Shown here one piece after another: positions 3,940 to 57,170 of a stretch of 64,000 bases of DNA. The translations under genes and the position numbers were made by a program. The DNA comes from Ulota crispa (Eukaryota; Streptophyta; Bryopsida; Orthotrichales; Orthotrichaceae), in contig OY987250.1 in assembly GCA_963920765.1 (NCBI GenBank), forward strand, positions 16,856,409 to 16,920,408, given 5' to 3'. Position 1 is the stretch's first letter, and each line of letters starts with the position of its first letter. The notes under the pieces are model-generated. The model made no database searches, was not told where the DNA came from, and saw only the letters and a list, made by a program, of their open reading frames with translations.

Positions 3940-4990
3940 CAAATCCTACTCTGCAATCTCGCATTTCAAAACACATGTATGTAATTAACTATATATGTCA
4001 TCATGCAGTTTTCTTTGAACAATATCATGATCTGCTACATTTTCTCCACAAAAATTAGTCTCTCTCTCACACATTTATAGAAACTGGTAATAATATCACC
4101 TCTAACTCGTCAAAATATTTTAGAAACATTGATCAAAATGTGTTTACTTATTGAACTCCTAGCTTGTGAACCAGGAACGCAATGTCGATTCAACAAACTC
4201 AAGATCCTACTTTGCAATGTCGCAATTCAAAACACATGTTTGTATGTAACTATATATGTCATCATGCGGTTTTCTTTGAAAAAGATCATGATCTGCTACA
4301 TTTTCTCCAAAAAGTAGTTTCTCTCTCACGTTTATATACAGAAACTGGTAATAATATCACCTCTAATAACTCATCAAATTGTTTTAGAAACATTGATGCT
4401 GTCAAAACGTGTTTACTTCTTGAACTCCTAATTCATGAACCAGGAACGCAATGTCAATTCAATGTAAAAACCTGCCTGATGCTCTTTAGAAAAAATGCTT
4501 GATGCAACGCCGGTGTTAACTCCTGAGCGCCTGGGCGACATGGGCGACAGTATATTGTAGCTCAAAAAGATGGGTCAACTCAATTTTGACCGTTATAATC
4601 TCATTGCACGTATAGTGAAATGACTTCCAATCAAGCTTAGCATGATGGAGACTCTTTCCACTAACGATTCATACGGTCGGACCTTGTGGATCGTATTTTT
4701 CAATCCACAAGGGCACTTTGATTGCACACAAGTCAAGCTTCTTTCGTTTCGTCTCTGGACTCTCAGGGGTTAACTTCTTGTTTAACGTGCCGCAGTATTG
4801 TATTGAAATATTTTAGAAACATTGATGCTGTCAAAACGTGTTTACTTATTGAACTCCTAACTTATGAACCAGGAACGCAATGTCGATTCATACAAGAGCC
4901 TGATGCTCTTAATAATACTCTTAAAAAATGCTCTTAAAGAATTGCTTGATGCAACGCCGGTGTTTAAGTTACTTCTTGTTAACGTGGCGC
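3940..4990. repeat. Degenerate tandem repeat, unit about 250 bp, upstream of glyoxalase I
   Basis: A unit containing TCTGCAATCTCGCATTTCAA, CATGATCTGCTACATTTTCT, GAAACTGGTAATAATATCAC and CAGGAACGCAATGTCGATTC recurs at about 3940-4190 and 4191-4450. Its 3' part (TAGAAACATTGATGCTGTCA to GCAACGCCGGTG) recurs at about 4385-4515 and 4810-4965. A TTAA-flanked transposon (4516-4773) interrupts one of the copies. No coding potential is evident. Confidence 0.75.
4516..4773. mobile_element. TTAA-flanked MITE, CTCCTGAGCGCC family
   Basis: TTAA occurs at both ends (4516-4519 and 4770-4773). The termini are TTAACTCCTGAGCGCC and CTCTCAGGGGTTAA. The interior (GGTCAACTCAATTTTGACC, AATCCACAAGGGCACTTTGA) is shared with the copy at 55902-56150. 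The neighbouring tandem-repeat unit supplies a related empty site: GCAACGCCGGTGTTTAAG at about 4955 carries one TTAA where this element has two. Confidence 0.85.
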
Positions 4991-5518
4991 AGTATTTTGA
5001 GCACAACGTATTGGATCATGGACATTGCTGTAAAGTGTAAACCCTACCTGGTGAGGCAAACCTGAATTGGCTGCGAGGAAGACGGCCGACCTGGATCACG
5101 ATATTTCCACTCAATAACTGCTTCTAATCAGCATCGACTCCATGTGACTTGATTGTTGCTCGATATCGTTGATTGTTTGAAACACAAAGTGTGTCTCTGA
5201 GTAATTCTTTAACGACATCACATGTCTTCAAATGTGGTTGAGTCCCTGTGAGGACAGTCACTATTGGTATCGGTAATGGTAACACTGTTATGGTTGTGTG
5301 GAGTAATGATCATTTCCTTCCAAGTACTTCGATTTTGGAGCTCTCTAAAACGCGTGCAAGCTTGAGGGAGACAGAGCGCATTCGTAGATATGAGATCCGA
5401 CCTCTACATATGTGCTGGAGTTAAGTTAGTTACCGGTATTTCGATACAAACGGTGAGAAACACGTGACAGTAGACCTCTTGCACCTTTGTGTTGTTGCGG
5501 TTGGTCGTGTTGTTGATG
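4991..5518. other. Intergenic sequence between divergent glyoxalase I and POC1
   Basis: About 500 bases with mixed composition. I see no convincing exon, repeat or RNA gene. Promoter elements of the minus-strand glyoxalase gene could lie here, but none is recognisable. Confidence 0.3.
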
Positions 5519-5520
5519 TA

Positions 5521-5937
5521 AGGTAGAAGCACCTAATTGTGACACAATTTGATCTCGGACATCTACAATTAATGCATAACCAGTTAGATACCCAAATCAG
5601 ACACGCATGATAACCTAAAGCTGACATTATAATTGACTATAAGAACATAAATTGTGTAAGTGGCAATTTAGGATTTCAGGTTACATGGTCTTTGTATTGT
5701 CGCTTTTTCATTTCAATACAACCATTTCAATGAGGGTCTAGTGTCCACAATAGGTAGGTCTAGGGAATTACCTCCAACAATTCGTAGTCTATTCATACAA
5801 TCTCAGAAACTTCCAAAAACAAATTTTCCAGCAGTCTTTGTTGGTTCCCTAACCATTCTTCAATCTCAAAATCTCGATGGATGCACACTCCCAGTGAATT
5901 GATTTAACAAAAGTGCCACATTTAGGTGCTTCTACCT
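5521..5937. mobile_element. TA-flanked AGGTAGAAGCACC MITE immediately upstream of POC1
   Basis: The TIRs are AGGTAGAAGCACCTAATTGTG on the left and the reverse complement of GCCACATTTAGGTGCTTCT on the right, flanked by TA on both sides (5519-5520, 5938-5939). A homologous element sits at 26092-26516 and shares GAATTGATTT(A/C)ACAAAAGTG near the right end. Related termini occur at 29151-29284, 54767-55175 and 57384-57697. The TA duplication suggests a Tc1/mariner (Stowaway-like) MITE. The right end lies about 46 bases before the POC1 ATG. Confidence 0.75.
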
Positions 5938-5984
5938 TAGGCTGCTTGTTGTTGTCGTCGAAGCCGGTGCCAACGTAGCAAACC

Positions 5985-8900
5985 ATGGGCGACCAAGACC
6001 CAGTCATCCTGGCCAGCTATGGCAGTCACCGGGGCGGAGTGAACGCGCTCCATTTCCGGCCACACATGAAGCATGTCGTCTCCGGAGGTGCCGATGCGGT
6101 GGTGTTGCTGTGGAGCTTACATTGTCGGCCTAACTTGCGGCATCCTGTTGTTCGACCGTACCGCTTTCTCGGGCATCAGGTCATCATTCTTCCGCAATCA
6201 ATTGTTTTTGCTCATGTTTTTGCTCATGTTTTTGCTCATGTTTTTGTCAACGTGCTTTGGGAGATGCAAGGCATGCATGTCGATCTTCGTTCTAGAACGA
6301 GGAATGTGATTCGTTTGTGCATTTCATTCGGAAAAACAATACTCCTCAAAGTCTCTCTTAACCCTTAAAGGACGGATGGATCGCCGTGGCTTGCCCTGCC
6401 GTGCCGTGTTTTGCACATGGGCACCAGTATTATAGCTTCAAAAGTTGGAAAAGTATGACTTCAAAAGTTGGAAAAGTTAACAGTGCATTGGTGCCCTCAT
6501 GAAAATTGCAAGGACAGCTTGGGAGCTAACAAACACCATGTTTCTAAATCTTATCACAATTTGGGTTACAAAAAAAAATGAATGCATTTCAAGAGGTAAT
6601 TTTTGTCTTCCATAATGGACCATGTGTTTATGGTCACTTCTGAAAAAAAATCAGATGGAAAACGACTTTTTTCTTAATCACAGAATCTTTTTCAGAGCCG
6701 GAGGACATTTTTTGTCTTCCTCGACGTTTAGGGGTTAATGCACAGAGAATGCTCTTTGGTTCGCAATTGGGTTCTTGCCCAGTGACCTCAAATATGATTT
6801 TCACTTTTAGCACAGGTGGCTAAAAACATTGCTAAAAAGCTAAAATTTTCAAATTTAACGCTGGACACTTTACATGAAATTTTTGTTAGCAATTCCTGCG
6901 AAATTTAGCCAGTTAAAAGAACCGAGAACTTCTCGGTTGCGGAAAATTCAGTATACTCTCGTTCGCCGGCTACCGATCCAGTAACAATTTGAAACATTTT
7001 CAACCTTTTTCAACATATTATGGGAACTTTCAGCTTAACAACATAGTTTTAAAAAACAGAATCGAATAAAAAACGCTGTGCAATGCAATCAGAAAATGCA
7101 ATCAGAAATGCTATGAGAACCAACTTACTTCGTTTTTTCCAAACACAGATTGATGATCATTGCAAGCCTTTCAATTTGTAAGCGAAGTGCCTGGCGTAGT
7201 TTGATTCGACCGTTTCATTTGATTTCCATATTCGCAATGTTTGCAGCTACTGTATTTTGTCCAGAATCTGCAGCTCGATCAAAAATATCGTAGCGCTGTT
7301 ATGAATCACGTTGGCATTTTAGATTACATTCATGGAAGTCACTGCTTGTGCAAAGTAAACTACTGTAGTATAAATCAGCAATTTTCCTTAGTTTGAATTG
7401 AGCGAATAATTAGGTCTGAAGGAGAAGCGGGTTCGGGATTCATGATAATGATAAAGATAATGGTTTACATGTTATCAAAACTTACAGCATGCCCACAAGG
7501 TTAGAGTTTTCGTTGTCTCGATTTTGACGGTCTTCAGACACGCCAAAATTTCAATTCTCAGTGTCGAACGGAATTCGGATACTGTAACGTAAGATTATCA
7601 TGTATCGAAGTACTCGCAGTTCAATACTCGTGGCTGGCTGAAGATAAGAATGGGGCGAAAATTGCTCATCCCGAGCTTTGCTTTTTCTTCAAAAGCTGAA
7701 TTAATGTCACTAGTTCCGCCTCAGCCCGAGTTTGTAGCCACATGTCGTGTTGAATAGCTAAGGTGCAACGACGAGGACAATCTTGTTTTGTTGGCTCTAG
7801 TCCAAAGGAAGAAGGTAGTTGCATTAACATAGCAGTCGAGTGAGTAGGTTCTTATGTGCAGTGTTTGTTGATACTCAAAAACCAAGCTCTAGTCCCTAGC
7901 ATCAGTAAGCTTAACCTATCGAGCCTCTTGCAGCTTTGAAATTGCACTGCAAATGTATAGTATGGAAGTTTGTTGGAACTAAGTGAAGAGCAATCTTTGG
8001 ACTGTAGAGCCTGATTTGGCCGTTTATGAGAATTCAATGTTGGTGTCTCAGAGGTATGGTGTAATTATCTAAAATGTTGAACACATAACACTGAATCTAC
8101 ATGTGCTTTCAGGGGCCAGTCTACTCAGTGGCTGTTTCGCCGTTAGACAATGTGGTGGCATCAGGATCCAAAGACAAGACCGTGCGCCTCTGGCTCCCTA
8201 CTGTGTGTGTGCATTTGCCTCAGTCTACTTTTACATCTGTTGTAGATTAATATTTCGAAGAGGTCAGTCGCATATCAAATTAATTGTTCGCAATATAAAG
8301 AAGGGAAAATTTTATGGATACCCCTGAAGTTTGCAATAATTTCATAGATACCCCTGCTTTCTCAGAAATTTCACAGATACCCTTGGACCAAAAAATTTAG
8401 GCGTTTGTTTTGTTGTGCATGCCACTTCCCTTCTTCCTTTGTGCGCACGCATAACAAAAGAAGTAGTGTGTGCAGAAAGGGAGAAGGAAGTGACATGCAT
8501 AACAGAACAAACGCCTAAAATTTCTGGTCCAAGGGCATTTGTGTAATTTCTGAAAAAGCAGGGGTATCAATGAAAATACTGCAAACTTTAGGGGTATCCA
8601 TGAAATTTTCCCTATAAAGAATGCTAAGAACACTCTGACGCCGTGCTAGGTAACTCAAATCTGGAGCCTGTTTGTGAAAAATACTGCATGCTAAGAGGCA
8701 AAGGATGTATTCTTTCCCTGTAAAGCTCCAGAATTGATTAACCCAGCATAATCTGAATGAGGACGCTATAAACTTGGGTGGTTTGGTGGTAAAGAATTGC
8801 CATAATGGATATTGTAAAAGAAAGAAGCCGTCATGGCTTATTACCCAGTTCCACCTGTAGATTAGTGTGCCTTAATCAGAATGTGATACAAAGAATCAAA

Positions 8901-11900: not shown

Positions 11901-14247
11901 TTGTGTTAGAGGGTTCGCTGGGTCCGATCCACGAGGAGGGCCCTCATATGGCCAATTGCATGGCGTGCCAATGTGCTTGTAAGACCTCCAAAGACTTGGC
12001 AGACAAAATTCTGGGTGGCGACTCACGCACCAACATTCCTGATTCGAAAGTAAAGCAACATTCGGGAGACAAGGTGAGCATGTTACGTGCATTCCTCTTA
12101 AAAATGAAGGACCGGCATTATCCTAAATTTTTGAAAGATAATTGTCTATTGCTTTCAATCATGTAAAAGAGGCAATCAAAACTAAGCACTTACAAAGCAA
12201 CAGAACCAATTCCTTGCAGAGAGCATCACCACCCTTTCTAGCCACCCTGCCTTACTACCTTGAGTTTGACTAGGCTGGAATATGCATTTACTAGGTCCCT
12301 TTAATATGTGCCCCACTCATGACTACTTCATTTAACCCACATCATAATTTAATCTACTTGGCCAAGTTACGCATCTTTGTGTCCATTTTTGGTAAGAATG
12401 TAGGGAGATGTAGTCAAACGACATGACCCGAGATATTTTGGTAAAGCAATCTTGTCCTTGAATCCTCCCAAGCCAAGGCTCGTATTTGAATGGGACGCTG
12501 GCTTTTTGTCATGTTGCCATATCATGAGTGTGGCCTTATGAGGTGGAGAGGCATGTTAATAGTTGATGATGAGTTGCTTGGAGAAGAGAGGTGGTGATGT
12601 TCTAACGCTCACAAAAATCAGTAAAAAATGACTAGTAGGAAACCCATCTCCAAATTGATATTCAAGAAAACCTAGGGTATATATGCTTGGTAGAATTAAA
12701 AAGAGAAACTGTTTTGAATGGCACTATAATTGGCAAGGTGTAACATGGCTAGGTTTTTTTTATTAACGATGGTTTCACATTTACCAATACTCCTTACCTT
12801 GACACATCCTTTTGTCCTTCAAAAAGAAAACATATATTTTTGTCCATATAGTTATATTCTCATATCAATTTAAATCGAGAAGTTTTTCCACAAACGCAAA
12901 TATTTTCTTGTTAATCCAAAGTATAATAAAATAAATTCTCATTTTTTTTTTGGTATATTTATATAAAATAGGTAACGGTTGCATAGTGTTAACGTTATTT
13001 TATTTTATTTTGCAGTTATAAACTTTATATATTTCTATTTATATATTTCTATTTATATATTTCTATATGTTCTTAATAAAAAAACCCTCAAAATTGCACA
13101 TGCCTTACTATGCAGGCACCGAAGGAAATGGACCCAAATGTGAGCCTGTATTTAGGATCATACCCTCCAAAAAGTCCACCTCGGCATAAGAGTCCACCCA
13201 AGCACCATCGGGAACACTCCCCTCAAAGATCTCCAAAGACAGCTTGCCAGGCCTTGTATGAAACTAGGAAGGAGAAGGAAAACTTTTCTCAGCCAAGTTC
13301 TGTAGCATTTTCACCCACCAAAAAAAATGGTCGCAGCAGAAGCCCGGAAGAGTCAAAGGCGATTCTCAGCTTTGGGAAAACCTTGGAGGTAAAATTCTTT
13401 ACATCCAACGTCAAATATGGACTGCATTTGTGAACATTTTTTGATTGCTCTACAATTAGGGTAGAGTGCAAATGATTAGTGATTCAGATTCCAGCAGCAC
13501 AACACCGTGCGGTGATAGCAGATTTGACGTAATATTGTTTTCTGCTCAAGCAGTGCCATTGGTATCACTTAATTGGCCAACGCTCATGTTATGTCAACTT
13601 GTGTAAATTTATATTAAGCATCAATTAATCCGCTATTAACTGGCAGTAATGTCAAGTCCAGTTTTTGAGGTGGCTATGTCACACCTTCATTGGTTTGTCA
13701 AAAGAGGGTTAACCCTTTAAAGACCAGGCGATTAGAAAGTGGTCGGTTCCCAGTGTATTTATCATACAAAGGGTTGAAACTTAGTCTCTCTTTTTGTTCA
13801 TTTTGTCTTTCTTTTCATTTGAGCCTTAAGAACAACTAAGAAGCTGATAAATTCTTGTTCAAGAGTTAATAGGACAGCGCTGCATTATGTCTGAAAGCCT
13901 TCTTCAGTCTCTAGCTTTTGAAGTTATCTTATCCAAATCCAAGCTTGAACAAACATGAATATTTAGCACGGTACTCTACCCTCATCTCTATTTCTAATTT
14001 GTGCAGCACATTGTTGGTCAGCTGGAAGTACTTACGCGAACGGTTTCCTTATTCGAAGAGCGCCTTTCTCATACAGAAAACAAGGTCAGTCATAACTCCA
14101 TTCTCCCATGTAAGTCACAAAAAAACGAAGAAAAGAATCTGCACTTGGCGTAATGTTCTGTTGTTTATTATGATTTGCTTGTAATTTATGCAGATGCTAA
14201 ATATCGAGAACCACAAGAAACAAATACCAAGAACATTAGAAGCTTGA
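5985..14247 (+). CDS. POC1: POC1 centriolar WD40 protein, complete, 13 exons, 503 aa
   Basis: POC1 is a conserved centriole/basal-body protein needed for centriole stability and cilium formation. Exons: 5985-6179, 8113-8204, 9069-9177, 9297-9385, 9576-9665, 10106-10178, 10764-10889, 11009-11128, 11247-11295, 11910-12073, 13116-13388, 14007-14084, 14194-14247. All phases agree and the sum is 504 codons including TGA. Residues 1 to about 315 form a WD40 propeller, with motifs such as [34 protein letters not shown] and [12 protein letters not shown]. Residues 370-460 are a Ser/Pro/His-rich linker ([12 protein letters not shown]). Exon 12 encodes the diagnostic POC1 C-terminal coiled-coil, [20 protein letters not shown]. 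The start has a good context (ACCATGGGC). The exon 2 donor lies in a GTGTGTGTG run and could shift by 2 bases; the phase of exon 3 favours 8204. Human POC1A/B are 407/478 aa. Confidence 0.93.
6206..6244 (+). repeat. 12-bp tandem repeat TTTTTGCTCATG, three units
   Basis: Three exact units of the 12-mer occur in POC1 intron 1, 26 bases after the exon 1 donor. Confidence 0.9.
6358..6738. mobile_element. TTAA-flanked MITE (CCCTTAAAGGACGGATGG family) in POC1 intron 1
   Basis: It is bounded by TTAA at 6358-6361 and 6735-6738. The left end is TTAACCCTTAAAGGACGG and the right end is CGACGTTTAGGGGTTAA. A subterminal hairpin (GGAGGAC...GTCTTCC) precedes the right end. The interior (GGTGCCCTCATGAAAATTGC, TGGACCATGTGTTTATGG) is shared with copies at 15395-15750 (inverted) and 39945-40269. 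Confidence 0.88.
8303..8612. mobile_element. Long-TIR palindromic MITE with 9-bp target duplication, in POC1 intron 2
   Basis: The 310-bp element starts GGGAAAATTTTATGGATACC and ends in its near-complement GGTATCCATGAAATTTTCCC. It is flanked by perfect TATAAAGAA duplications (8294-8302 and 8613-8621). The arms pair for most of their length, and the centre carries its own inverted repeat around TGTGCGCACGCATAAC. Sister copies are at 18797-19110 and 43849-44244. A 9-bp duplication and long TIRs are typical of Mutator-like elements. No coding capacity. Confidence 0.92.
10384..10630. mobile_element. MITE with GATATTCATTAATTTGGGA TIRs, in POC1 intron 6
   Basis: The left end GATATTCATTAATTTGGGA is mirrored by TCCCAAATTAATGAATATC at the right end. 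The interior (CACTAAGATTTTTTCCCTC, TTCAAAAGTCCCAAAATG) is shared with copies at 54043-54291 (inverted) and 55257-55510. Confidence 0.8.
13027..13066 (+). repeat. Short AT-rich tandem repeat (TATTTCTATTTATA, about 3 units)
   Basis: A 14-mer is repeated almost exactly three times in POC1 intron 10, close to the exon 11 acceptor. Confidence 0.8.
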
Positions 14248-15394: not shown

Positions 15395-15750
15395 TTAACC
15401 CCTAAACATCGGCACAGATGAAAAACGTCTATTGCCTTTGAAAAAAAACTTTGTATCCCAGAAAAAGATAGATTTTGATCTGATTTTTTTCAGAAGTGAA
15501 CATAAAAGCGTAGTGCATCATGGAAGGCAAAAATTTACCTCTTGAGATACATTCATTTTATTTTGTAACCCAAATTGGATACATGGTGTTAGCTCCCGAG
15601 CTGCCCTTCTTGCAATTTTCAGAAGGGCACCATGCACTGTTGACTTTTTCCAACTTTTTGAAGTAACACTACTGATACCCATGTGCAAAACATTGTAGAA
15701 TGCTACAAGCAAGGCAAGCGACTGTCATCCATCCGTCCTTTAAGGGTTAA
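15395..15750. mobile_element. TTAA-flanked MITE, inverted copy of the 6358-6738 family
   Basis: TTAA at 15395-15398 and 15747-15750. The left end is TTAACCCCTAAACATCGG and the right end is ATCCGTCCTTTAAGGGTTAA. The interior is the reverse complement of the POC1 intron 1 element, including GCAATTTTCAGAAGGGCACC. Confidence 0.88.
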
Positions 15751-16046: not shown

Positions 16047-16280
16047 GTAACCCCTTAACATCTCATGGGGATATAAGATACATTGTTATATAATTGGCAT
16101 TTGCTACCAACAAGAAATTTTAATTTGGGCCCTCAAACAATTCACTAAAACTGCATAGATCTATATTCCAACTTCTTTGTTGATCTTAAATGTAGTAAAG
16201 GTGTGGATGCATTCCAAACACAAGAAAAACACCTTGTATTATACTAGCCGCAAAGGCACTTTTAGATATTTAGGGGTTAA
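16047..16280. mobile_element. TTAA-type MITE (GGCATTTGCTACCAACAAG family), 3' of FDH
   Basis: The left end GTAACCCCTTAACATC has a mutated first T; the right end is ATATTTAGGGGTTAA. The interior (ATTGGCATTTGCTACCAACA, GTAGTAAAGGTGTGGATGCA) is shared with 16766-16986 (inverted), 53046-54407 and 56933-57170. Confidence 0.8.
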
Positions 16281-16604
16281 ATATGACATAATATACTTGA
16301 AAGTCCTTCAAAATGAAATATTCCAACTACACTCAAAACAAACAAGAGCAAACAAACTCAATCAACAAGCAATACCAGAAACAGTTTCAAGCTTGACAAC
16401 AAAAACTTTTATTTTATTTCTCAATAGATTGAATGACAAAACACATGTATTTTGTCATGATATGTACAAGCCTGTTTCAAGCTCCAATTTGTACACCAAT
16501 TACCTGCAAAGTGAGTGATACCCCCAATGGATGCCTCTCTTTTCATCGGAGCCACAGTCTTTCTCTTTTACAAAGCTCGCAGAAATGAACTTGCATAGCA
16601 GAGC

Positions 16605-19600
16605 TCAGAGATACTGGCTTGCCAGTTTGCCTTCCCGGACGATGTAATTCTGCTCTGGAAAAGCCTCATTCTTGAACCACCGGTCTAGCATGTCCTTGGT
16701 CCCTGCCGCAAACCGTTTCTGCACACCATGGCCCCCAAGTCCATACTGTTAGAACTAACATAGATTTTACCCTTAAAGACCCTTTGCGGCTAATATAATA
16801 TGAGGTTTTCTTGTATTTGGAATAGATACACCCTTAGTACATTTGAGATCAACAAAGAAGTTGGAATATAGATCAATGCTGTTTTAGTGAGCTATTTCAG
16901 ATTCCAAATCAACACTCCTTTATCGGTAGTAAATGCCAATTATATAACAACACATCTACTGTGCCCATGGGATGTTTTAGGGTTAAGTGAAGTACTTACA
17001 TTCTACATTTTTTTTCTTTTCTCTTGCAATTTATTTGATAACTTAGCAAATGAAAGGTTTAACACTTTCTCTAAGCAAGCTTCCTCTTCGAATACCCTTG
17101 TCTCCAATGATGTGGAATGGGGGAAGCACAAAACTATCTGATGAAACGGATTTCAACCAATTAATTGAAAGTACTAATTGGTTGGAGGACATGTCCACTT
17201 TCTGTTAAGATAAGGGAATAAGGGAGAGCACAACCAAGCCTCGCAACTTTTTACAAACAAAAGCGCTTGCATTATCCAATAAGAAGAGCTTATCACATGA
17301 ATTTTCAAAATTCTTTGTCACGCCAGTGGTTTCTATTAGGAGAGGTTTTCCATTGGAAGTGGAACCCCCTAATATTCAAGGACAACGCTCACAAAGGATC
17401 AAGTACACAAACATTAGTAAAAATAGTAAAGAGAGCAAGCTTTTATCATTGTAAGGGTCAACTTCCACAACGAACCAAGAATCAAAAACCAAAAAACCAA
17501 AAAATAAAATAAGAAATTTCTGCATTATGGGTTTTCCAATTTTGGGGCCCAACATGGAAACTTGCTCTAAGTATCATATTAGATAAAGAGTGAAAGCATG
17601 AGCATACTGACTTGGAAGTGGAAGAAAAGCAAGAAGCATGAGCAATAGCATTAGAGGCCCCTTGGCATGTAAGGAAGGGCAATGACTTAGGCAACAAACG
17701 GTTTAAGGGTTTAAATTGTATGTATGTGATAATGTCACAAAGAGTGGAGATGTGATAATACAAAGGTCACTATGATTGTATCTATAATATCATAGAGGGT
17801 GGAGATGTGCCATTAAAGAAGTCTAAATGTGATATTACAAAAGTAATTGTGATCTTAGTAGAATGCCTAACACTTGGCACTTGCTACGCTATGCATTCAC
17901 CATTGAAAATTTATTAGGATTTTCATATGTTAAACAGAATGTAAAATAAAAAAATTGAGCAAGTCTTCAAATTGTACCTATTTCATAATATGACGGCTAA
18001 AGATATGATAGATATCAAAGATTGAAGATGTGATATTAGAAAGATCATTGTCATTTTAGTAGAATGATGGAAAGAGAGAGGGACGCCAGCGAACCTGGGC
18101 GTCGAGCGTGGTGCCGGAGATGTGAGGTGTCATGGCGTTGTGGGGCATGTACCGCCACAAGTGATCCTTCCCCGCCGGCTGCTCGTTCCACACATCCCCC
18201 CCGTACCCACCCAGATGCCCACTCTCGCACGCCTCCTTCACAGCCTCCTTATCAGCAATGGCCCCACGAGCATTATTCACCAAATACGCCCCCTTCTTCA
18301 TCTTGGCAATGCGCTCCTTGTTGAACAACCCCCGCGTCTGGTCCGTCAGAGGCGTGTTCACCACCACCACGTCGCACTTGCCCAGCAGTGTATCCAAATC
18401 GAGCTCCCGCGTGCACCCCAGCTCCTTCTCCCTCTCCGCAGACAACGCGTGCCTGTCAATCAGGGTCCGGGAAATTATTTGAGATTTTTAGGTTGTTTTC
18501 CTCAAATTCCCATGTTGAACCGGTTTATCAAGGAACTACTTCAGTTATTTTCTCTATTTTGTACTATAAATTAAAAAAATTAAGAGCTTTAACCGATTTC
18601 TTAGCCAATGCTTGTAAATTGCAATTGATTTTTTCTCATTTCAATCAGCTAGCTTCAAACTAGCGACCACTTCTCCCTAGACGAGGGTTCGGGATATATT
18701 TGAGATTTTTAAGTTGATTTCCTTGAATTCCCATGTTGAACCGGCTTATCAAGGAACTACTTCAATTATTTTCTCTATTTTGTACTATAAATAAAAGGGA
18801 AAATTACATGGATACCCCTGAAGTTTGCAATATTTTCATAGATACCCCTACTTTTTCAAAAATTTCACAGATACCCTTGCACCAAAATTTTCAGGCATTT
18901 GTTTTGTTGTGCATGTCACTTTCTTCTCCCTTTGTGCGCACACTACTTCTTTCTTGTTATGCATGCACACAAAGGAAGAAGGGGGAAGGGGCATGCACAA
19001 CAAAAAAAACACCTAAATTTTTTGATCCAAGGATATTTGTGATATTTGTGAAAAAGCAGGGGTATCTATGAAAATGTTGCTAACTTCAGGGATATCCATG
19101 AATTTTTCCCTAAATAAAAAAAAAGAAAAAGATATTTAACTGGTTTTTAACCCCTAAATGGCCCAAAAGCCCTTTGCGGCCGTATGTATGGTCATATGTA
19201 CAAACATATTTATTTGAGCTACTCTGAGGACTTTCCAAAAAAATATATGCACCCACCATTATACAACTCTTCAATACATATGGTTGTAACACTTAATTTC
19301 CAATTGATTCAAACTTCTGAATATTGGTTGCAGCTGTATTTGGTACCATATCTCTAGAACCCAAGGGCCCTTCAAGAATTAACCAATGCTTGTAAATTGC
19401 AATCAGTTTTTTTTTCATTTCAACCGGCTAGCTTTGAACTAGCGGTCGGTTCTTCCCGGACCTTACCTGTCATAATACACCATCTCCTTGAGCCCGAACC
19501 CTTTCAGACGCTTCATGAGCTCCTGCCCAATGCGCCCCCCGCCCACGGTGCCCACCGTGCGATCAATCAAGTCGTACGCGTGATGCACCACCGCTGCCAC

Positions 19601-23471: not shown

Positions 23472-24725
23472 GCTGAGGTGAGCTGACATGCCGTTTTGTG
23501 GGGCCAGGGTAGAAAATTTCAGCTTTTTCACCTGGTCAGAAAATGTAAGATTTTGGATGTTACCATCAAAATATTGAACTTGAAATTTTTGAATTCATAC
23601 TTGCATCCAGAGACTTATATTTAACCTCTAAAGGTCCAAGCCCATTTTTTTGTAAAAATCACTGAAAATTGTCACTTTTGGAGGAATGAGTAGAAAAGTA
23701 GGAAAACTAGTTTGTTTTAGAAATCCAACCATAGGATCATGTTCTAGACTATGGGAAGTACTTGCATAAAAAAATCAACTCAATTTAGATGTAGGGGAGT
23801 GAGATATTGACATCTAAAGTGCAAAAATAAGTTTTTTTCCCTGTTGCCCAAAAATTTCAGAAGCCTTTGACCACTCCTATATCAAAAAAGTTGCTCTACG
23901 CAAAGTTGAGGTTTATTTTTCCCATGTAGGAGACCAAGTTAGGTAAGTGTTAGAGAATTTTCAAATGAATTGGAGGTGTGGATCATAATTTGTAAATATT
24001 GCAGTGCCGTAAGGCCATGAAAATTGCATATACACTAGGCAAAATTGGAGGATTTATGTAAAATTGAGAAATTCAAATTTCTTTTATCCAAACAGTGAAA
24101 ACCAAGGAATCTTAATCTACTCCAACTTGGAAAAAAAAAAGTCAAAAAAAAATTAAGGCTCAAAATTTTACAAGGGGCAAAAGAAATGGAGATTTGGGAA
24201 TCCAATACCTACCCGCAAACTAAAACCTCTTACTCATCAATCAAAATCGTATGATTCAAAACTTTCCACATATACAATAATCAAAAGAATCAATTTCAGG
24301 GTTTTTTAATTAAAAAATACAATTTTTAAAGAAGTTTTTTGGGCTACCCGGACTGCCTGCCCTCCCTTGTTGTTCAAAAGTTCATGCATAACTTCTTCAA
24401 TAATTGTTGAAATGAAGAAAAAATTGGATGTGCACAGACATCTTTGAATTCCCCACCATCCACAAAAATTTTGAAAAAATTATAAAAACTAATTTAGTCA
24501 TAGGTACATGCCCGAGGTCCATTTGTCCCTGAGGAGACACTTGGGCCTTTAGGGATTAATAGAAAACTCAGAATAGGATACCATTTAACAACGCCATCAT
24601 AGGGACAAATTACTGATTTCACCCTGATTTCACCCTGATTTCACCCTGATTTCACCCTGATGGGAAAAAGCTGTGAGATTTTGCCACCCTGGCCACACAA
24701 AACGGCATGTCGTGTAACCCCACCC
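23472..24725. mobile_element. Long-TIR MITE with CGGTTGCTG direct flanks, split by a TTAA element
   Basis: The outer ends carry roughly 60-bp TIRs: GACATGCCGTTTTGTGGGGC...CAGCTTTTTC on the left and the complement of CCACACAAAACGGCATGTC on the right. The 10-mer TCGGTTGCTG occurs directly outside both ends (23462-23471 and 24726-24735), fitting a 9-10-bp target duplication. Without the nested insert (23621-24559) the element would be about 315 bp. Four 11-bp TGATTTCACCC units lie inside the right end (about 24613-24660). Confidence 0.8.
23621..24559. mobile_element. TTAA-flanked element nested in the 23472-24725 MITE
   Basis: The left end is TTAACCTCTAAAGGTCC and the right end is GGGCCTTTAGGGATTAA, with TTAA at 23621-23624 and 24556-24559. 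Its interior (AATCCAACCATAGGATCATG, TAGGTACATGCCCGAGGTCC) is homologous to the larger copy at 37522-38987. Confidence 0.85.
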
Positions 24726-26516: not shown

Positions 26517-26859
26517 CGAGCTTGGAGAAATGGAGAATGGACCGGCTTGGAAGTTGGAAGAGCTAGATTAGACTGTAGCATCCAGGAACTGGCAGTGGCA
26601 AGTCTGCATGCTCCAAACTGGGCAATTCATATCCTCACAACTCACACGTGTCAGTACCCAATATTAGAAAGAATTTGGGGGCGTTGCAAGGGGATTTGAG
26701 ATATGTTTCCATAAAGTTCCCGTGGCTGCCACGTCGATCAGAATCAGACCGGAGGCATGACCAGGTACACCATTGAAATACATTCAAACTTTTAATAGTA
26801 CATTGGTTTCATCATGTCAGAGATACCACTTTTAACCCCTAAATGCCTGACTGCATGGT

Positions 26860-27619
26860 TTAACCTCTGAGCGCCCATGCCATTTTCACCAAAATCAGGG
26901 TTTTTGGAGAATGATAACTTTGATGCGTCGTATCTCAGTTAATCGGATGATTCACAAAAAAGTGATCATTGAAAATAATGAAACACTTACTTAGAAAATG
27001 ACTTGCAAATTTTGGGAACAATTGACAGTGGGAGATGGGAGATTATAACACTTGATCAAACGACATGTGATGACAAAATCTCAATTTTTGGTAGGTAGTT
27101 GCTACTTAATGATTTTTACAAATTCTATAAGCCCTTGATTCATCTGAAATTTTGTGAGCAGTAAGATTAGATGTGAATGCACACACTTGTAAATGATTGA
27201 AGATTGCACTTCTTATTATGTCAAGTTTTAGGCCTTCAAATCACTATTGCACGGAAAACAATGACCGGCACAATCAGTGATGGTTGCCATAATAAGGGTC
27301 TAGAACATGCTTGAACCCTTGCTAACAACTTTCCTACTACCATAAAGCACACACAAGGAAGCTTGCAAGGGATATTAACCGGTTGCAACTGTAAAACGTT
27401 GCTTGCTACCACGCCTCGTATGGTGTTTCACCCAATCAAATTTCTTGCAACACTTGTACAACATTTGACTTTCCTTGCCATTACTCCATTAGCATGGACA
27501 ACTTGAATGCCTTCATAATTGTAGTTTAAAGCAAGATTGAAAAAGTAGATATGGTTCCTCAAATAAGCATTTCTAATTCCCAGAGACAATATACTGTCTC
27601 TAGGGCACTCGAAGGTTAA
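26860..27619. mobile_element. TTAA-flanked element nested at the left end of 26832-29081
   Basis: The left end TTAACCTCTGAGCGCCC pairs with the right end TAGGGCACTCGAAGGTTAA. TTAA at 26860-26863 and 27616-27619. Confidence 0.65.
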
Positions 27620-27734
27620 TATTTGTTTTTGCCAAGGTAGAGCGACCCGCACATAACATTCAGTAATCTGAAAAGAGGTTGCCTTTCCCTCTCTTCAGGT
27701 TTCATCCACGAGCTTCATTCTGACAAAAAACATA

Positions 27735-27768
<34 letters not shown>

Positions 27769-27950
27769 TTTGACATGGCTAGGCTCCCACATTGACATAT
27801 GTGCACTAAATTGAGCCTCTCTTTCATAAACTTTCCAACAAATTTAGCCAAGTGTCCCCATAGTTAAAAAATGGTGTGGAATATTCCACACCATTCTCTT
27901 GGAGGGAGGGTAGCCTTCAGCCCTTTACTAGTGCTATTGAATGTTATGCA
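27735..27950 (-). mobile_element. SINE-like unit ending in an (ATT)n tail
   Basis: Read on the minus strand it runs GCATAACATTCAATAGC, GGTGTGGAATATTCCACACC, GTGCACATATGTCAATGTGG, CTAGCCATGTCAAAAA, then (TAA)n. The copy at 52588-52775 on the plus strand has the same order but ends in a GAAA simple repeat. A fixed 3' end followed by variable simple repeats, with no TIRs, suggests a retroposon. Confidence 0.55.
27737..27771 (+). repeat. ATT trinucleotide microsatellite
   Basis: About eleven consecutive ATT/TTA units form the tail of the SINE-like copy. Confidence 0.95.
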
Positions 27951-29150
27951 CCCCAGAATGCACAGGTAAGGAAGAATTGGCTAAATTTGGAAAGAATGAG
28001 TGACATGTGAAAGTTCATCCAAAGAACTATTAATATAAGCTATTTTAATTCAAAATTTGGCAAACTAGTTTGTTGCTCAAGGTGGAACCTGGCGATTTCA
28101 TCTAGATTTTCTTGCAAATTTCTTAGTGTACTAGTAGCCATAAGCTTTCAAAGGTAAGATTTAGGCAAAAATTCACCAAGAAATTAAACCGTGCCTGGAG
28201 GTACCCAATTTGGGTGTTCAAGAAACTTTGAGACCTTGGTGAAGGCAAAGATTTTAATTTTAATTTTACTTTTATTTTTGGAGTGCAAGTTGAAGTTAGC
28301 TTCAATATCTAGTTTTAATTTCCTTCAAACCTGATTTCAAATTTTTTTGGTAGAAGCTCAACTGCAAGCATGTTTCTTACGCATCAAAATGTGTGATGAA
28401 TAGAGTCACTAAAGAGCCTATGACAAGTTGTCACATTGGAAAACCGAGCAACAAGTTGAGAATAAAATGAAGATTTTCCTTGGGCACTCCCTTGGGCAGT
28501 GAGAGCCCTTTCAGAGAAATTTCATCATCACCTAACAAAAGCTAAACATGTTTTTGCACTAATTTCACTTGGAATGTTTATTTTTGTATAGATGGGAATT
28601 CATTGACCATTGGAAATTCTTTCATTCAAAACAATATTTGATCATTAATTGGAGCTAAAAATTTTCTTTGTATTAGATGGTAGCTCTTTGACAGTTGCAT
28701 TGCAAGCTTGTTTGTGAAATTGTGGTCATGGATTTAGAAGGGGAGTCATTAGTTTTGAAGTAACAACAATAAGCACTAAATCATCATAAGTAGAGGTTTC
28801 CCAATTTCTACTCAAAAGTTGCCAATTTGCATAACAAGTTTCAAGCAGGCAACTCCAAAAAATATATAATTTTTTTTACTTGTCCACATTCAGTCATAAA
28901 ACATCTCAACATTCACCTAAATTTTTTACAATTTTTTTTTTTGGCTCAAAAGCCTTGAAGTTCAAAATCCTGTGGTTACAATTTGTTTTGATATTTTATA
29001 ATGATCATACAAGGACAATCCAAAAAAATTCAAAATGCCTTCTTGAACTGTGAAAAGTGTCGTCAGGCATATAGGGGTTAATATAGGGTTCCAAACCTTG
29101 AGGACAATATTCTCTGCAAAAATGGAGGCATTCTCAGGCAATTTGAGATA

Positions 29151-35825: not shown

Positions 35826-36476
35826 TTAACCCCTAAATACCCAAGGCACCACATTTTGGTGTTGACAACAATTTGAAGTTCAATAAAACTTCACTATGTT
35901 TCTATTTTTAATAGTTTGTTTTTTTGCATATCCTTTTTCAAGTCTATTTTTGGCATTAAAAATCTGATTTTGGAAATGATTGATCATGATTTTTTTATTC
36001 AAGAATTTGTGCAAGGGTGCCATTGCAATCTCAACTTTCTTAGTGTTGAGATCTTTTGGAAATGAGCCTCAAATACACTAGATCTTGGAGAAAATTTTAC
36101 ACTAGAAATTCATTTTAAAAAAGTAAAAAAATCTTGAAATGCTGTAAATTGATTGAAGTTATGTATGTTATGTCCTTTAACATAATACTTTTTTTGTTAC
36201 CTTTTTTTTTCAAATTTAACAGGCAAAAAGAGGATGGAAAGACTTCAAGTCATTTTCACATTTTTGACACCCTCTTGATCAAACATTCTAATCTTTCAAT
36301 CCATAAGTGATATTGTTGTGTTTTCTTTTCCTATGTGATCTTGAACATATCTAATTTAAATTTAGAGAGTTACAATTTTACAAAAATTGATACAACTAAT
36401 CAAAATGTTGGCTTGTTGTTCAATTTAGAGCAAATTCCCAAAAGCTCAAAAAAGCCCTTGGGCATTTAAGGGTTCA
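35826..36476. mobile_element. TTAA-flanked element
   Basis: The left end TTAACCCCTAAATACCCAAG pairs with the right end CTTGGGCATTTAAGGGTTCA, where the last tetramer is a mutated TTAA. About 20 bp of TIR. Confidence 0.75.
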
Positions 36477-37521: not shown

Positions 37522-38987
37522 TTAACCTCTAAAGGACCGTGGCCTTTATTTTGTCAAAAGGCACTCAAAATTGCCATTTCTATGGCAAAGAGTAAACAAG
37601 TTTGAAAATTGGTCTTTTTGCATATCTAACCATAGGATCTTGTATACTAGATTAGTATGAGTATGTGAAAAAAAATTCAAATAACTTAACCGCATAGATT
37701 ACAAGATATTTGTGTTTAAAGTGTAAAAATCAAACTTTTTTGCACCTTGCATGATTATATTATTTGACTTTAAACTTTTTTAACTTAAATTTTTTGCACC
37801 ACATAGTTTAGAGGCTTCTAACTTTCTGATGTAAAATTGAGTTGAGAATCTTTGGAAAAAAACTAAAACAAAAAATACTTAATTAGAGTATTGGACACTA
37901 AGTTGTAGTCCTTTTAAAAACCCCTTCCACACATTCAATCCTTCATCAAATTCAAAAGTGACTACATATTTGAAAAGCCGGCTTAAGGGTGAAAAATGTC
38001 TTAGAATTTGAAAAGTGATTTTTTTTAATTTCATATTTTTAATCCATGTCAAATGCAATTTTGCACAAATGAGTATGCCATATTTATTCACTTTTATCAA
38101 CATTGTCAACATCTTTGTGGCTTTTAACCGCCTTTTAGAATTTGAAATTGTCTCAACTTGAGCAAGCCTATTGTACATTGAGAATAGATTGAGAATATAC
38201 TAATGGTAATTTGTTGACAAACTTGTAGTGATTTTAAAAGTATTTAAATCATACCTGGTTTTGCTTTTCAAATTTTTTTTTAACACTTCACTTTATTAGA
38301 TTTACATCAAAATTAAAGAAAATTTGCTACTTTTTCTAAGCTTTTCAAATATTGAATTAGTTTTAGATTTGGTAGAGTATCAATTGCATGAGAAAAATTT
38401 AGAAAATGAACTTTGACTTACTGCCTAGATTTCTGTCATTCTTAAAAAAAATTAGGTAGGAGAAGGTATGAGACTGAACAAAAACTTGAATTGTTAGTAA
38501 CCCTGCAATGGAATTGAAACAAATTAGTCCCAATGATAAGATTGCTTTAGCAAGCAAACTTCACCCTTTCTAGAAAAAATTTGAAAAAATGTTAAACTTG
38601 CATTCAAAAATGAAGTCTATAAGTTATTTTTTCAAGAAGATGCTTAAATTGCCCAATTAACAAGATTGTCCATAATATTCTCATAACTAGTCCAAATGGA
38701 ATGAATAAAAGCTTCAGATGTAGAAAAAAAAAAATTCTATGAGAAAAAAATTAAAAAAACTCCATGTTTTTGTAAAAATATTTGCTGCTCAATTTTCTTA
38801 AATTTGTGCTTATTTGGGCATAACGTTTGCTCCTAGGCATAGATTGGAATAGAAATTATACTCCTCAAAAGCTAATGTGTTTTTCTATCTTCAAAAAAGT
38901 TTCAAAAAATCAGAACAAATATTGAGGCTGTAGGTACTTGCCCAAAATCCCATTTGTCCCCTAAAGGGACAATGATCCTATAGTTAA
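37522..38987. mobile_element. TTAA-flanked element, larger relative of 23621-24559
   Basis: TTAA at both ends. The left end is TTAACCTCTAAAGGACCG and the right end is GGGACAATGATCCTATAGTTAA (shown in part). Homology to the 23621 copy is clear at AATCTAACCATAGGATCTTG versus TCCAACCATAGGATCATG, and near the right end (GTAGGTACTTGCCCAAAATC). Confidence 0.78.
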
Positions 38988-39944: not shown

Positions 39945-40269
39945 TTAACCCTTAAGTGTCAAATGGGTGGCCATGCCTCTACAGTGGTTTCTATAGTGGT
40001 TTGGCATGTGCCACCCATTAAAATTTTGTTTTATAAAATTGCAAAAGTCAATAGTGCATGGTGCCCTCATGAAAGTTGCAATAAGAGCAGCCTAGAACCT
40101 GATAGTGTGTTTCTGAATCTTATTACAATTTAAATTACAAAACAATATGAATACATCTCATGAGGTAATTTTTTACCTTCCATGATGGACCATGTGTTTA
40201 TGGCCACTTTTTACTGAATCATCAGAGCCGGAGGACGTTTTTACGTCCTTCTCGACGTTTAGGGATTAA
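39945..40269. mobile_element. TTAA-flanked MITE, third copy of the 6358-6738 family
   Basis: TTAACCCTTAAGTGTC on the left and CTCGACGTTTAGGGATTAA on the right. It has the same subterminal hairpin (GGAGGACGT...ACGTCCTT) and the same interior (GGTGCCCTCATGAAAGTTGC). Confidence 0.87.
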
Positions 40270-52775: not shown

Positions 52776-52814
52776 ATCTTAGCTCTTGTTGAAATATGTT
52801 TACACTACGGTGAT

Positions 52815-53049
52815 TTAACCCTTAAGCGCCCTAGCAACGAGATCATGTTGTTGGGGCCCACGACTTGGTCTCACTTTTTCTCTTAAATTGTACAGTGAAA
52901 ACAGTCTTGGCTAGTCCCCATCAGCAAAGAAGGTAGTCCTTTATCAAATCCTATAGTCACTTTTTTTGGATGTAATTTTTCAAGCTCTAGTGGCCATCAA
53001 ACCCCATTTTCTCCTAAACCCTAAACAACTCTGGGCGCTCAGGGGTTAA
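52815..53049. mobile_element. TTAA-flanked MITE, back-to-back with the next element
   Basis: The left end TTAACCCTTAAGCGCCC pairs with the right end GGGCGCTCAGGGGTTAA. Its right TTAA (53046-53049) is also the left TTAA of the 53046-54407 element. Confidence 0.85.
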
Positions 53050-53243
53050 CCCTTAAACATCCATAGGGAATCATATATACACTGGCATATAATTGTCATT
53101 TGTTACCAATAAGATATTTTACTTTGGGATCTCAAGTAGCTCACTAGAACTGCATTGATCTATTCTCCAACTTCTTTATTGGTCTCAAATGTAGTAGAGG
53201 CGTGGATCCATTCCAAATACAAGAAAAATATCCCATATTGTAC

Positions 53244-54366
53244 AATCAGGTATAGCAATGTTATGAGTAGCTCATTTGAGCCATTCAGTTGTTGTGGTGA
53301 AATGTAGAGTATAATTGGTAGATTTTTGTCCAAACATTTATCATTGCATTCTCACATAATTCCAATCAAGCATACCAAAACACAATTTCAAAAAAGCAAA
53401 ACTTCATTTGTGGTGAAATTTTAAAGCAAAATTTCATGGTTTTACATGGTATTTTATTAAAAACAATTGGTGATGAATATTTGAGATTTGATTTCATGGG
53501 TATGTAGGAAATATCCATATGCACGTCTTCCATGCAAAAAAAATACCCCCTTAAGTAACAAAAATTTGAGCTACAAAAGATTCAATGAAACATGTGATAG
53601 GCCCAAATTTTGTAAAATACATATCTTTATTTTTTAACTAGCTTTTCATCAAGTAAACAAGATATCATGTTCCCAGATACAAACTTAGTCATAGTATTTG
53701 ACTCAAATAGCAAAATTTGATTTTCAGAAAAAATTATATATTTTACAAAATTTGGGCCTATCACAAGTTTCATTGAATCTTTTGTAGCTCAAATTTTTGA
53801 TACTTAAGGGGGTATTTTTTAGCATGGAAGATGTGCATATGGATGATTCCTACATACCCGTGAAATCAAACCTCAAATATTCATCACCAATTGTTTTTAA
53901 TAAAATACCATGTAAAACCATGAAACTTTGCTTTAAAATTTCACCACAAATGAAGTTCTGCTTTTTTGAAATTGGTTTTTAGTATGCTTGATTGAGATTA
54001 CATGAGAATGCAATGATAAAATTTAGGACAAAAATATATCAAACGCGTTATTCCTTAATTTGGTAAAAATCTTACATTCTGGGAAATTCAAGTGCCCTCC
54101 TGAATCTGAGCTCAACAGAGCGTTTTTTTTGTACACGGGTCCTCACTTCAGAGGAGGAATTTGTGAGGAAAAAAATCTTAGTGGCTCAGATTGACTTTGA
54201 TACCTTTGAATTTGGTTTAAGGTGGCTATTTTGGATTAAGGTGAGGAACAAAATGGTACCATCATTTTCCCATTTTAAAAAATAACGCGTTATCAATTAT
54301 ACTCTACACTTCACCACAAAATCTGAATTGTTCAAATGAGCTATTTGTAACATTGCTATACCCGAC
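53244..54366. mobile_element. Foldback-type element nested in 53046-54407
   Basis: The ends ATCAGGTATAGCAATGTTA and (complement) GTCGGGTATAGCAATGTTA begin TIRs of about 75 bp. TGTAC lies just outside both ends (53239-53243, 54367-54371). Inside, arms of roughly 300 bp around 53321-53620 and 53740-54035 are inverted copies related to the 32590-33500 palindrome. Confidence 0.85.
54043..54291. mobile_element. TTAATTTGGGA-type MITE nested in the foldback element
   Basis: The left end ACGCGTTATTCCTTAATTTGG pairs with the right end AAAATAACGCGTT. ATCAA flanks both sides (54038-54042, 54292-54296). The interior is the inverse of 10384-10630 (CAGAGGAGGAATTTGTGAGG, AATCTTAGTGGCTCAGATTG). It breaks the otherwise continuous right TIR of its host element. 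Confidence 0.82.
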
Positions 54367-54411
54367 TGTACTAGTCGAAGCGGCACGCTCAGACATTTAG
54401 GGGTTAAACTT

Positions 54412-54612: not shown

Positions 54613-54766
54613 CACGGTGGTGAAGCTCAGATTTTTGAGCAGGCAGAAAGTGTAAACGTTTAGATATTTTACCACTGGGAGATTGAGTATGGGGATTTCG
54701 GATTAATACGTGGATTGCGAGACCCTGTTTTGGGTCTAACTCGAAGGAGATGAAACTTCCAACTCA

Positions 54767-55175: not shown

Positions 55176-55256
55176 ACACTTAATAGAGCATTTAGGTTGC
55201 CCCACTCTAATTTCTTGACATTTTACACTACATAAATATTTACCAATATTACAACA

Positions 55257-55510
55257 AATGCATTATTTTTTAAATTGGGAAAATAGAGGTACCATTTTGT
55301 ACACCTTAAACCCAAAAAGTCACCTTAAACCAGATTTGAAGGTATCAAATTCAATATGAGTCACTAAGATTTTTTCCCTCGCAAATTCTTCCTCTCAAGT
55401 GTGGGCACGTGTACCAAAAAAACGCTATGAGCTTGGTTTCAGGTGGTCTCCTGAAACCTTCAAAAGTCCCAAAATGTATTGTTTTTCCCAATTTAACAAA
55501 TAACACATTA
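55257..55510. mobile_element. TTAAATTGGGA-type MITE, third copy of the 10384 family
   Basis: The left end AATGCATTATTTTTTAAATT pairs with the right end CAATTTAACAAATAACACATT (shown in part). The interior (GAGTCACTAAGATTTTTTCC, TTCAAAAGTCCCAAAATG) matches 10384-10630. Confidence 0.75.
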
Positions 55511-55901
55511 ACAATCTTCATTAATTATTATTGCAATAAACAAATTTTAATGGGCATGACAATAAAAAATAAAAATGCTGAAAAACAAACTAGCAACATT
55601 CAAGCCATAAAATCCTAGCCAATATTTAGAGAGTTGCATGCGCCTCCAAGTGGCCAAGTGATGAGTCATGAGGTAACTTTTTAGGATAAGACAACCTAAA
55701 CACACTGCTTAGTATTCAAAAATTGGTTAGGCTAAACTGACCCTCAAGGACATAATATCTAAAATTCCTATGCTATACATAAATGTCACAATATTTTACA
55801 TAGATCCTCCATTGTTTAGTATATGGATGGACAATTTCTAGATTTGAAAAGTCCAAATTTTAATTAAACATATCATTATAGAAAATGTCAAGTGCAAGTA
55901 T

Positions 55902-56150
55902 TTAACTCTTGAGCACCCGAGAGAGATTATAATGTCCCTGAAAAATCTAGGTCAACTCAATTTTGACCAATATTATCTCATTGCACGTTTGGTGAAGCCA
56001 CTTCCAATCTAGTCTAGCATGATGGAGAAGCTTTCCACTAAAAATTCAAATGGTCCGATCTTGTGAATCATATTTTTCAATCCACAAGGGCACTTTGATT
56101 GCATACAAGTCAAGCTTTTTTTGTTTCAACTCTAGACGCTCAGGAGTTAA
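55902..56150. mobile_element. TTAA-flanked MITE, second copy of the 4516 family
   Basis: TTAACTCTTGAGCACCCG on the left and GACGCTCAGGAGTTAA on the right. The interior (TAGCATGATGGAGAAGCTTT, AATCCACAAGGGCACTTTGA) matches 4516-4773. Confidence 0.85.
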
Positions 56151-56932
56151 GTGTGATCATGATCTAGTTATAATACAAAATATGATGAATCAAGTTTTTC
56201 AAAATCAAAATAATCAAATGTATTGCAATTTGATGAAGTTGTGGTAGGATTCAATATACATTATGTGCATATAAGATTTGAATACAAATTTTTTGGGTAT
56301 GTGAAGGTGTGAATAACATAGGTATGTGCCCTTCATCTACATGCAACATCTCCAATGAAAAGTGATTAATTTTGCTCAAGAGGATTGTTCTTAGGACAAC
56401 CTCCAAACAGTAAACCCAAAAAGGATGAGTAAAACACAACGAGAAGTCATTCGTTTCGATAATGACTAATAGACATGAAACTGGATTACTAATATATAAT
56501 TTATCTATATACTTGTACAAGAAAATTAATTAATTTTGATGTGAAAAGAAGCAATATTAAGTTGTCTAATTGATTATAGGAAGCAACTCTCAGTGTTTAT
56601 TATTTAGAACTAGCACATCTAGATTGTCTAATTGTTTAATATCCCATATTAACACCCACAAAAATATTATGATATATATTTCAATTTGCACATCAATGAA
56701 GAAGACCCTTTGATTGGTTTAGGCAAATTTAAGATAATAAAAGATTTTCTAATCACATTAGATTCTTTAATGGTCCTAGCTAGCCTAAACACAATATTCA
56801 TTAACTTGGGTAAAACAATTTCCCAAAACGGATTTTGGAGATACTAAATTTTGCATTTGTGAAATGATTTCGGTGGTTTAAAGTGAGCTTTTATATAATT
56901 CCTTCAAGATATTTCATTATTGATGTAAGGGC
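56151..56932. other. AT-rich intergenic sequence
   Basis: No gene, RNA or repeat is supported here. Confidence 0.4.
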
Positions 56933-57170
56933 TTAACCCTTGAACAACCGAGCTACTATAATACATACTATGTACACTGTTGTATAACTGGCATTTGCTA
57001 CCGACAAAAAGTTTTAATTTGGGATCTTGACTACCTCACTTGAACAGCATTGATCTATAATCTAACTTTGTTGATCTCAAATGTAATAAAGGTGTGGATG
57101 CACTCCAAATACAAGAAAATACTCCATATTGTATTGGTCGCAAAGGGTTGCTCAATTGTTCAAGGGTTAA
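56933..57170. mobile_element. TTAA-flanked MITE, intact member of the 16047 family
   Basis: TTAACCCTTGAACAACCG on the left and GTTCAAGGGTTAA on the right. It has the same interior as 16047-16280, including GGCATTTGCTACCGACAAAA and ACTCCAAATACAAGAAAATA. It serves as the uninterrupted reference for the 53046-54407 copy. Confidence 0.85.

Follow-up and report, generated by a model that had tools for sequence, protein, structure and literature searches.

Short elements with similar ends, each lying between two TTAA tetranucleotides, are scattered over a stretch of 64,000 nucleotides in the genome of the moss Ulota crispa (C9:16856409-16920408, called the window here in its whole length; the assembly has 274.8 Mb in 157 contigs). 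piggyBac is a transposon group well known from animals, and the original prediction read these ends as a piggyBac signature. Are the elements indeed miniature inverted-repeat transposable elements (MITEs) of the piggyBac superfamily, and which transposases have moved them? It is almost certain that they are non-autonomous piggyBac transposons of the moss nuclear genome which retain the ends of larger, transposase-bearing elements there. Both a TTAA unit at empty sites and PF13843-encoding elements with the same ends bear out the piggyBac interpretation, and the predicted termini, target site and superfamily were correct overall.

Ends and target site

Exact TTAACYYYTRA ends occur 24 times in the window on the two strands, whereas ten first-order Markov sequences average 1.1. 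Thirteen element starts had been predicted. Twelve of them pair with a facing end and have an outer TTAA on each side, while 37522 has only a left end, and the start placed at 19146 belongs to a real paired element that begins one base later, at 19147. Three elements described as decayed are also real; 16047 and 16766 align with the 56933 family, and 35826 is one of a family with a length of about 650 bp. Across the 12 paired elements, the first 13 bases inside the TTAA agree between the left and right ends at 8 to 12 positions. Thus, several elements are poor inverted repeats. The pairing is weakest for 39945 (8/13), for which no full-length copy was seen and whose borders are the least certain. 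The CCCYTNANNGNCC ends have the CC(C/T)T form of the piggyBac superfamily, and the TTAA target of that superfamily was found at the 12 paired elements.

At least five unrelated interior families had been claimed, and an all-versus-all blastn comparison gave eight or nine groups: 4516 and 55902; 6358, 15395 and 39945; 16047, 16766 and 56933, which 53046 joins via its first ~180 bp; and 19147, 23621, 26832, 35826 and 52815, each by itself. The element at 26860 is nested inside 26832.

How long is the duplicated target? The flanks of 31 candidate elements were joined with one TTAA and compared with 286 kb of sequence. Six insertions have relatives that span the junction, and in four of the six at least one relative is gap-free with a single 4-bp TTAA-like unit. 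In the empty relative of the L029 element, TTAA is aligned to TTAA with no net gap, and in that of L003, TTAA is aligned to CCAA, again with no net gap. The window element 19147 has three empty relatives, two of them gap-free (TTAG or TTAA) and the third with one gap base beside the site. For 56933, two relatives are gap-free (TTGA and TGGA) and a third is deleted at the site. A duplication of 2 or 3 bp would leave extra bases, and the four clear cases need none. In these four, the unit is 4 bp long, as the predicted TTAA duplication requires.

Transposases with the same ends

The genome was searched with the profile PF13843 (DDE_Tnp_1_7, the piggyBac domain), and scoring covered 116 of the 528 candidates from the first look. 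At least 120 matches, with some genes counted in two pieces, lie above the cut-off (best E 1.3e-73). Twenty loci were fetched with their flanks for detailed reading. PF13843 was the sole family in a Pfam scan of seven transposase pieces from five loci, and the nearest PDB relatives are piggyBac (6x67) and piggyBat (9c0f), with E values of 6e-17 to 3e-24. The D motifs align with those of piggyBac and piggyBat, and I take the aligned residues to be the catalytic ones. By regular expression on these decayed copies, the first motif was found in 16, the second in 13, the third in 9 and all three in 7 of the 20 transposases. Thirteen of the 20 have a Cx2C...Cx2C pattern 3′ of the domain (two with internal stops), which was not found in the other 7. 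An RNase H-like fold would be expected from the homology of the sequences to 6x67. The domain is broken by in-frame stops in 16 of the 20 transposases. When frames of at least 110 amino acids were listed without intron modelling, none ran uninterrupted across the domain and the cysteine-rich part; if introns are present, a gene such as that of L039 might be less broken than it appears.

The original prediction had called for a search for transposase-bearing relatives with the same ends. Such elements were found, and they encode PF13843 proteins. Facing ends that are at least 11/13 alike flank 6 of the 20 transposases, compared with 2.2% of 1,000 random window anchors. The borders can be seen in L021 and L030, which are 90% identical over 5.0 kb, diverge outside both ends and have different flanks; the left TTAA of L030 is TTCA. 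The 5,027-bp end pair of L021 (11/13) is thereby confirmed. The best-scoring outer pair of L021 (9,125 bp) is composed of neighbouring MITE ends and was rejected. An apparent 6,621-bp element at L038 was also rejected; its right end belongs to an adjacent MITE of ~967 bp, and the own right end of L038 seems to have decayed to TTGA. A further transposase between such ends is that of L024, described below.

Open frames of 354-539 amino acids lie upstream of the transposase domain (L024:5802-7091, L025:2694-4310, L026:2059-3240 and L036:2329-3390). A scan of three of them (L024, L025 and L026) gave no Pfam match; the frames may be a long N-terminal extension or a separate gene. In three cases, two transposase loci stand in opposite orientation, ~15-110 kb apart, with equal or near-equal scores (C7:18203169/C7:18223004, C2:36765124/C2:36779670 and C10:676128/C10:785346), which suggests inverted segmental duplications.

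Parents of the short elements

The L024 element is 5,746 bp long and has TTAACCCCTAAATGCC at both ends. In a genome-wide search with it, 40 of 6,145 candidates were scored. Its right end recurs at three further loci with a transposase (C9:1.93 Mb, C4:5.94 Mb and C4:14.10 Mb). Thus, this right end belongs to the transposase element. A further 29 loci (manual row count) match only the two ends of L024 and span 0.9-1.1 kb, e.g., C4:15173517-15174424. The left match runs from query position 1 or 2 to 61-168 (70-82% identical), and the right match from about 5,047-5,200 to 5,746 (82-88% identical). These 29 loci are internal-deletion derivatives. They are what a MITE should be, i.e., short, numerous and equipped with the ends of a transposase element. 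In the window, the last 588 bp of the interval 26832-29081 are 74% identical to the right end of L024, and 28203-28282 matches its left end. Thus, the right part of this interval is an L024-type derivative, with an uncertain exact left border.

Two more window families are linked to a transposase element, namely the 939-bp family, which has a long stretch in common with the right end of L040, and the 235-bp family, which has only its last 27 bp in common with L037 (Table 1). Derivation from a larger element is clear for the L024 lineage, partial for L040 and confined to the last 27 bp for L037. MITE matches near L030 were rejected as parent links because they fall outside the L030 element.

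Abundance in the genome

Is the window unusual? The sequence TTAACYYYTNANNGNCC occurs 17,369 + 17,358 = 34,727 times in the genome, while its reversed pattern occurs 37 + 29 = 66 times. Taken by itself, TTAACCCCTAA occurs 17,299 + 17,363 times (reversed pattern, 115 + 116), and the 11-base TTAACYYYTNA occurs 40,908 + 40,829 times (reversed, 12,278 + 12,327). The window contains 8 of the 17-base ends, compared with a genome mean of 8.1 per 64 kb, and 25 of the 11-base ends, compared with 19.0. Fourteen window intervals total 7,935 bp, or 12.4% of the window. Extrapolated from this one window, the piggyBac share of the genome is roughly 9-12%, i.e., 25-34 Mb. A blast search with the collected elements covers 17.4% of the window; for the 20 transposase loci, which are not a random sample, the figure is 8.1%.

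Three window families (235, 939 and 238 bp) were searched genome-wide as DNA, and 40 candidates were scored for each; the numbers of first-look candidates (1,060, 8,871 and 5,146) are not true copy counts. With 100 bp of flank included in the query, 39 other copies of the 939-bp family were compared; 35 have their start and 26 their end no more than 3 nt from the border. The corresponding numbers for the 238-bp family are 33 and 32 of 39. Both ends lie within 8 nt of the border in 33/39 copies of the 939-bp family and 36/39 of the 238-bp family. For the 235-bp family, 15 copies (the window element and 14 drawn from the best-scoring of 40 other copies) were aligned. Column conservation is 0.91 inside the element and 0.30 and 0.35 in the flanks. 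These 15 copies differ from the majority sequence by 7.4% on average, with 207 transitions and 57 transversions. Given this divergence and the stops in 16 of the 20 transposase domains, much of the element swarm looks old.

Two element ends stand back-to-back at one TTAA at 2,652 sites (34 for the reversed pattern), as at window 53039-53052. This is 1.9-3.9 times a simple expectation, for which the TTAA count was extrapolated from the window and the 20 transposase loci (6.3 and 3.8 per kb). The excess may come from local clustering.

Which transposases moved the elements?

Kolobok and some Sola elements target TTAA or other 4-bp sites. The MITEs could belong to another such superfamily, with the piggyBac genes as bystanders. 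The presence of Sola1 in a moss would fit, as it is listed for Physcomitrella in Table 1 of a review (PMC9033089). With the transposase search made for PF13843, I regard this as very improbable, since the MITEs and the PF13843 elements have the same ends (about 586 bp is common in the L024 lineage), the flanking of transposases by such ends far exceeds the 2.2% chance level, and the pertinent passage of a coral study names TTAA together with CC(C/T)T ends as the hallmark of piggyBac (PMC2872659). Tourist (PIF/Harbinger-like) MITEs, whose TTA/TAA targets are described as frequent in plants in part of a plant review (PMC10004981), would have a 3-bp duplication, the extra A being part of the end. 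No such duplication was found in the four clear insertions, which are gap-free to empty relatives with a single 4-bp unit, and the linked transposases are piggyBac. A Tourist origin is thus scarcely credible.

Did one transposase family move all these unrelated MITEs, with the ends alone mattering? The original prediction had suggested mobilisation by shared transposases. An end conserved across unrelated interiors supports this, and so do the five window families without a longer match to any of the 20 fetched transposase elements. On the other side, a tree of the 20 transposase domains has four well supported larger groups, and the 16 transposases with a known end range in protein identity from 0.29 to 0.81. 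End variants tend to follow the proteins, and two families share long terminal stretches (443 and ~590 bp) with one particular element each. A single family of enzymes is therefore quite unlikely to account for everything, and the sharing that had been suggested stands for the end rather than for the enzyme. I read this as an end common to the whole superfamily that varies with the lineage, where cross-mobilisation is possible.

Several points weigh against a piggyBac origin with lineage-specific parents. The correlation of end variant with protein is weak (Mantel Spearman 0.24, p 0.018; 0.23, p 0.027 without L030), and in its input some ends are known from one side only and L023 and L040 may have MITE-type ends. 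Among the 20 transposase elements fetched, none was found to have more than the end in common with the families of 4516, 6358, 19147, 35826 and 56933. At a threshold of at least 10/13, ends flank 8 of the 20 transposases (one, L038, falsely), which is about twice the random 18.3%. Of the six empty-site comparisons, those for window 4516 and for L034, which has three gapped relatives, are unclear, and all six involve diverged repeats, not orthologous loci. An AlphaFold model of the transposase from a 7-row alignment was too poor for use, with a mean predicted local distance difference test score (pLDDT) of 38.

If the elements are piggyBac transposons, a transposase from a larger element would bind the TTAA-CCCYTNANNGNCC end that the elements have in common, cleave at the 3′ ends with hairpins formed on the TTAA overhang, and insert the DNA into another TTAA, like the piggyBac of Trichoplusia ni. 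Several transposase groups took part. The cutting chemistry, footprint-free excision and movement in trans are inferred from this likeness. A broader conjecture is that mosses have a native, long-diversified piggyBac system that has become one of the leading DNA classes of the genome, with some lineages still mobile (footprint-free), and that insertions may favour the TTAA at element ends and so build chains; I hold it to be possible though unlikely.

Known systems

The mechanism of T. ni piggyBac, with hairpins on TTAA overhangs and seamless repair, is described in a structural study, parts of which are used here (PMC7351741). The moss transposases resemble that enzyme (6x67) in the DDD motifs, the C-terminal cysteine-rich domain and the TTAA target. 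They differ in the size of their elements (about 5-7 kb), the upstream open frames and the divergent sequence (E 4e-20). The best PDB relative of the L031 transposase is piggyBat of Myotis (9c0f, E 2.6e-24; PMC11707139); the host of piggyBat is a mammal, and the likeness is one of transposase sequence.

The closest likeness among MITEs is found in coral, whose CMITEs and AmiPB, in the sections consulted, have TTAA with CC(C/T)T ends, e.g., CCCTTTAACGCCC and CCCTTAGAGACCTA, and are tied to piggyBac (PMC2872659). There, too, MITE families are several and differ in their ends, the genome also contains piggyBac elements, and tandem arrays are described. In contrast, the coral MITEs are ~100 bp long with a common interior and an estimated tens to hundreds of copies per family, whereas the moss elements have differing interiors, sizes of 0.22 to about 1.4 kb and 34,727 exact ends.

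Is piggyBac rare or poorly described in land plants, as had been supposed? Partly. As far as the relevant passages go, a survey of 257 species has PiggyBac in every group of eukaryotes, land plants among them (PMC4438587), one review names piggyBac among plant superfamilies (PMC10794571), a plant review lists a PiggyBac MITE superfamily in angiosperms (PMC10004981), and the summary of another paper states that piggyBac has been isolated from plants (PMC10813416). On the other hand, the repeat tables of the fern Ceratopteris (1,230 copies; PMC6890710) and the grass Stipa (1 copy; PMC8319324) give PiggyBac 0.00% of the genome; the superfamily label is the same, and the elements are not described in those tables. 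The portion available of a 2022 review of land-plant transposons covers six cut-and-paste superfamilies (Tc1-Mariner, hAT, Sola, MuDR-Foldback, PIF-Harbinger and CACTA) and leaves piggyBac unmentioned (PMC9033089). Among the matches listed from open-licence full texts, no description of piggyBac elements of a moss was found; a match in the Niphotrichum literature was the word 'piggybacking'.

This is a known kind of element, and the surprise is its host and scale. According to the passage concerned in a review on piggyBac as a tool for plants, a footprint is left by every DNA transposon found in plants (PMC10905368). A moss with piggyBac in perhaps a tenth of its genome would correct a footprint-only, piggyBac-less picture of plant transposons and would offer native piggyBac ends and transposases for plant biology. 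Its related MITE families are many, and a parent can be identified for some of them, so that it would become testable which transposase moves which MITE.

Features of the window and neighbouring genes

The elements are collected in Table 1. A single 940-bp element at 16047-16986 was ruled out, as the alignment resolves it into two short copies in opposite orientation.

Table 1. Positions of piggyBac-type elements in the window
Feature	Position	Strand	Remarks
258-bp non-autonomous element	4516..4773		TTAA-bounded ends; 84% over 223 bp to 55902-56150
381-bp non-autonomous element	6358..6738		family with 15395 and 39945; 71% end to end vs 15395-15750
Isolated left end TTAACCCTTTAAAGACC	13709..13725	+	missed by the original prediction; no partner found
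356-bp non-autonomous element	15395..15750		orientation opposite to 6358
Decayed 234-bp copy, 56933 family	16047..16280		by alignment
Decayed 221-bp copy, 56933 family	16766..16986		by alignment; inverted vs 16047
236-bp element	19147..19382		full-length relatives in L005 and L033
939-bp element	23621..24559		over its first 443 bp, 77% identical to the right end of the L040 transposase element
2250-bp interval	26832..29081		outer ends match 12/13; contains nested 26860-27619
760-bp element	26860..27619		nested in 26832-29081 at a TTAA
651-bp element	35826..36476		TTCA in place of the right TTAA by decay; related copies in L007 and L021
Truncated element, left end and ~120 bp	37522..37643	+	no partner end
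325-bp element	39945..40269		interior common to 6358 family
235-bp element	52815..53049	+	over its last 27 bp, 96% identical to the terminus at transposase locus L037
1362-bp element	53046..54407		long internal inverted repeats; adjoins 52815-53049, one common TTAA
249-bp element	55902..56150		4516 family
238-bp element	56933..57170		empty-site relatives in L026

A mitochondrial formate dehydrogenase gene of several exons lies at 18056-21700 on the - strand, its N-terminal part being recognised by eye. One exon is ~87% identical to PDB 7arz (126 residues, manual count), with 249 bits compared with 172 for the next entry; 7arz is presumably the Physcomitrium structure. The chloroplast contig C157 encodes a PsaB with 6l35, 8htu and 7ksq, presumably from Physcomitrium too, as its best PDB matches (1,710-1,712 bits, compared with 1,674 for the next entry). 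Both results agree with a moss other than Physcomitrium as the probable host. The element 19147-19382 is within the span of this gene and probably intronic. A WD40 reading frame at 5979-6368 (+ strand), by eye POC1-like (a centriole protein), ends where the element 6358-6738 starts. Long reading frames at 46582-51271 (- strand) appear by eye to encode a leucine-rich-repeat and GTPase (Roco-like) protein.

Two other kinds of repeats were seen. An unrelated fold-back family of 310-400 bp with the ends AGGGAAAATT...ATGGATACCCC occupies 8302-8613, 18796-19111 and 43847-44247; by eye, its outer direct repeats are A/T-rich and 7 bp long (ATAAAGA, AAATAAA and TAAAAAT). An 887-bp inverted repeat at 32601-33487, with inner arms 97% complementary and the ends TA|CCCCTCAATAAG...CTTACTGAGGGG|TA, is perhaps a TA-targeting element.

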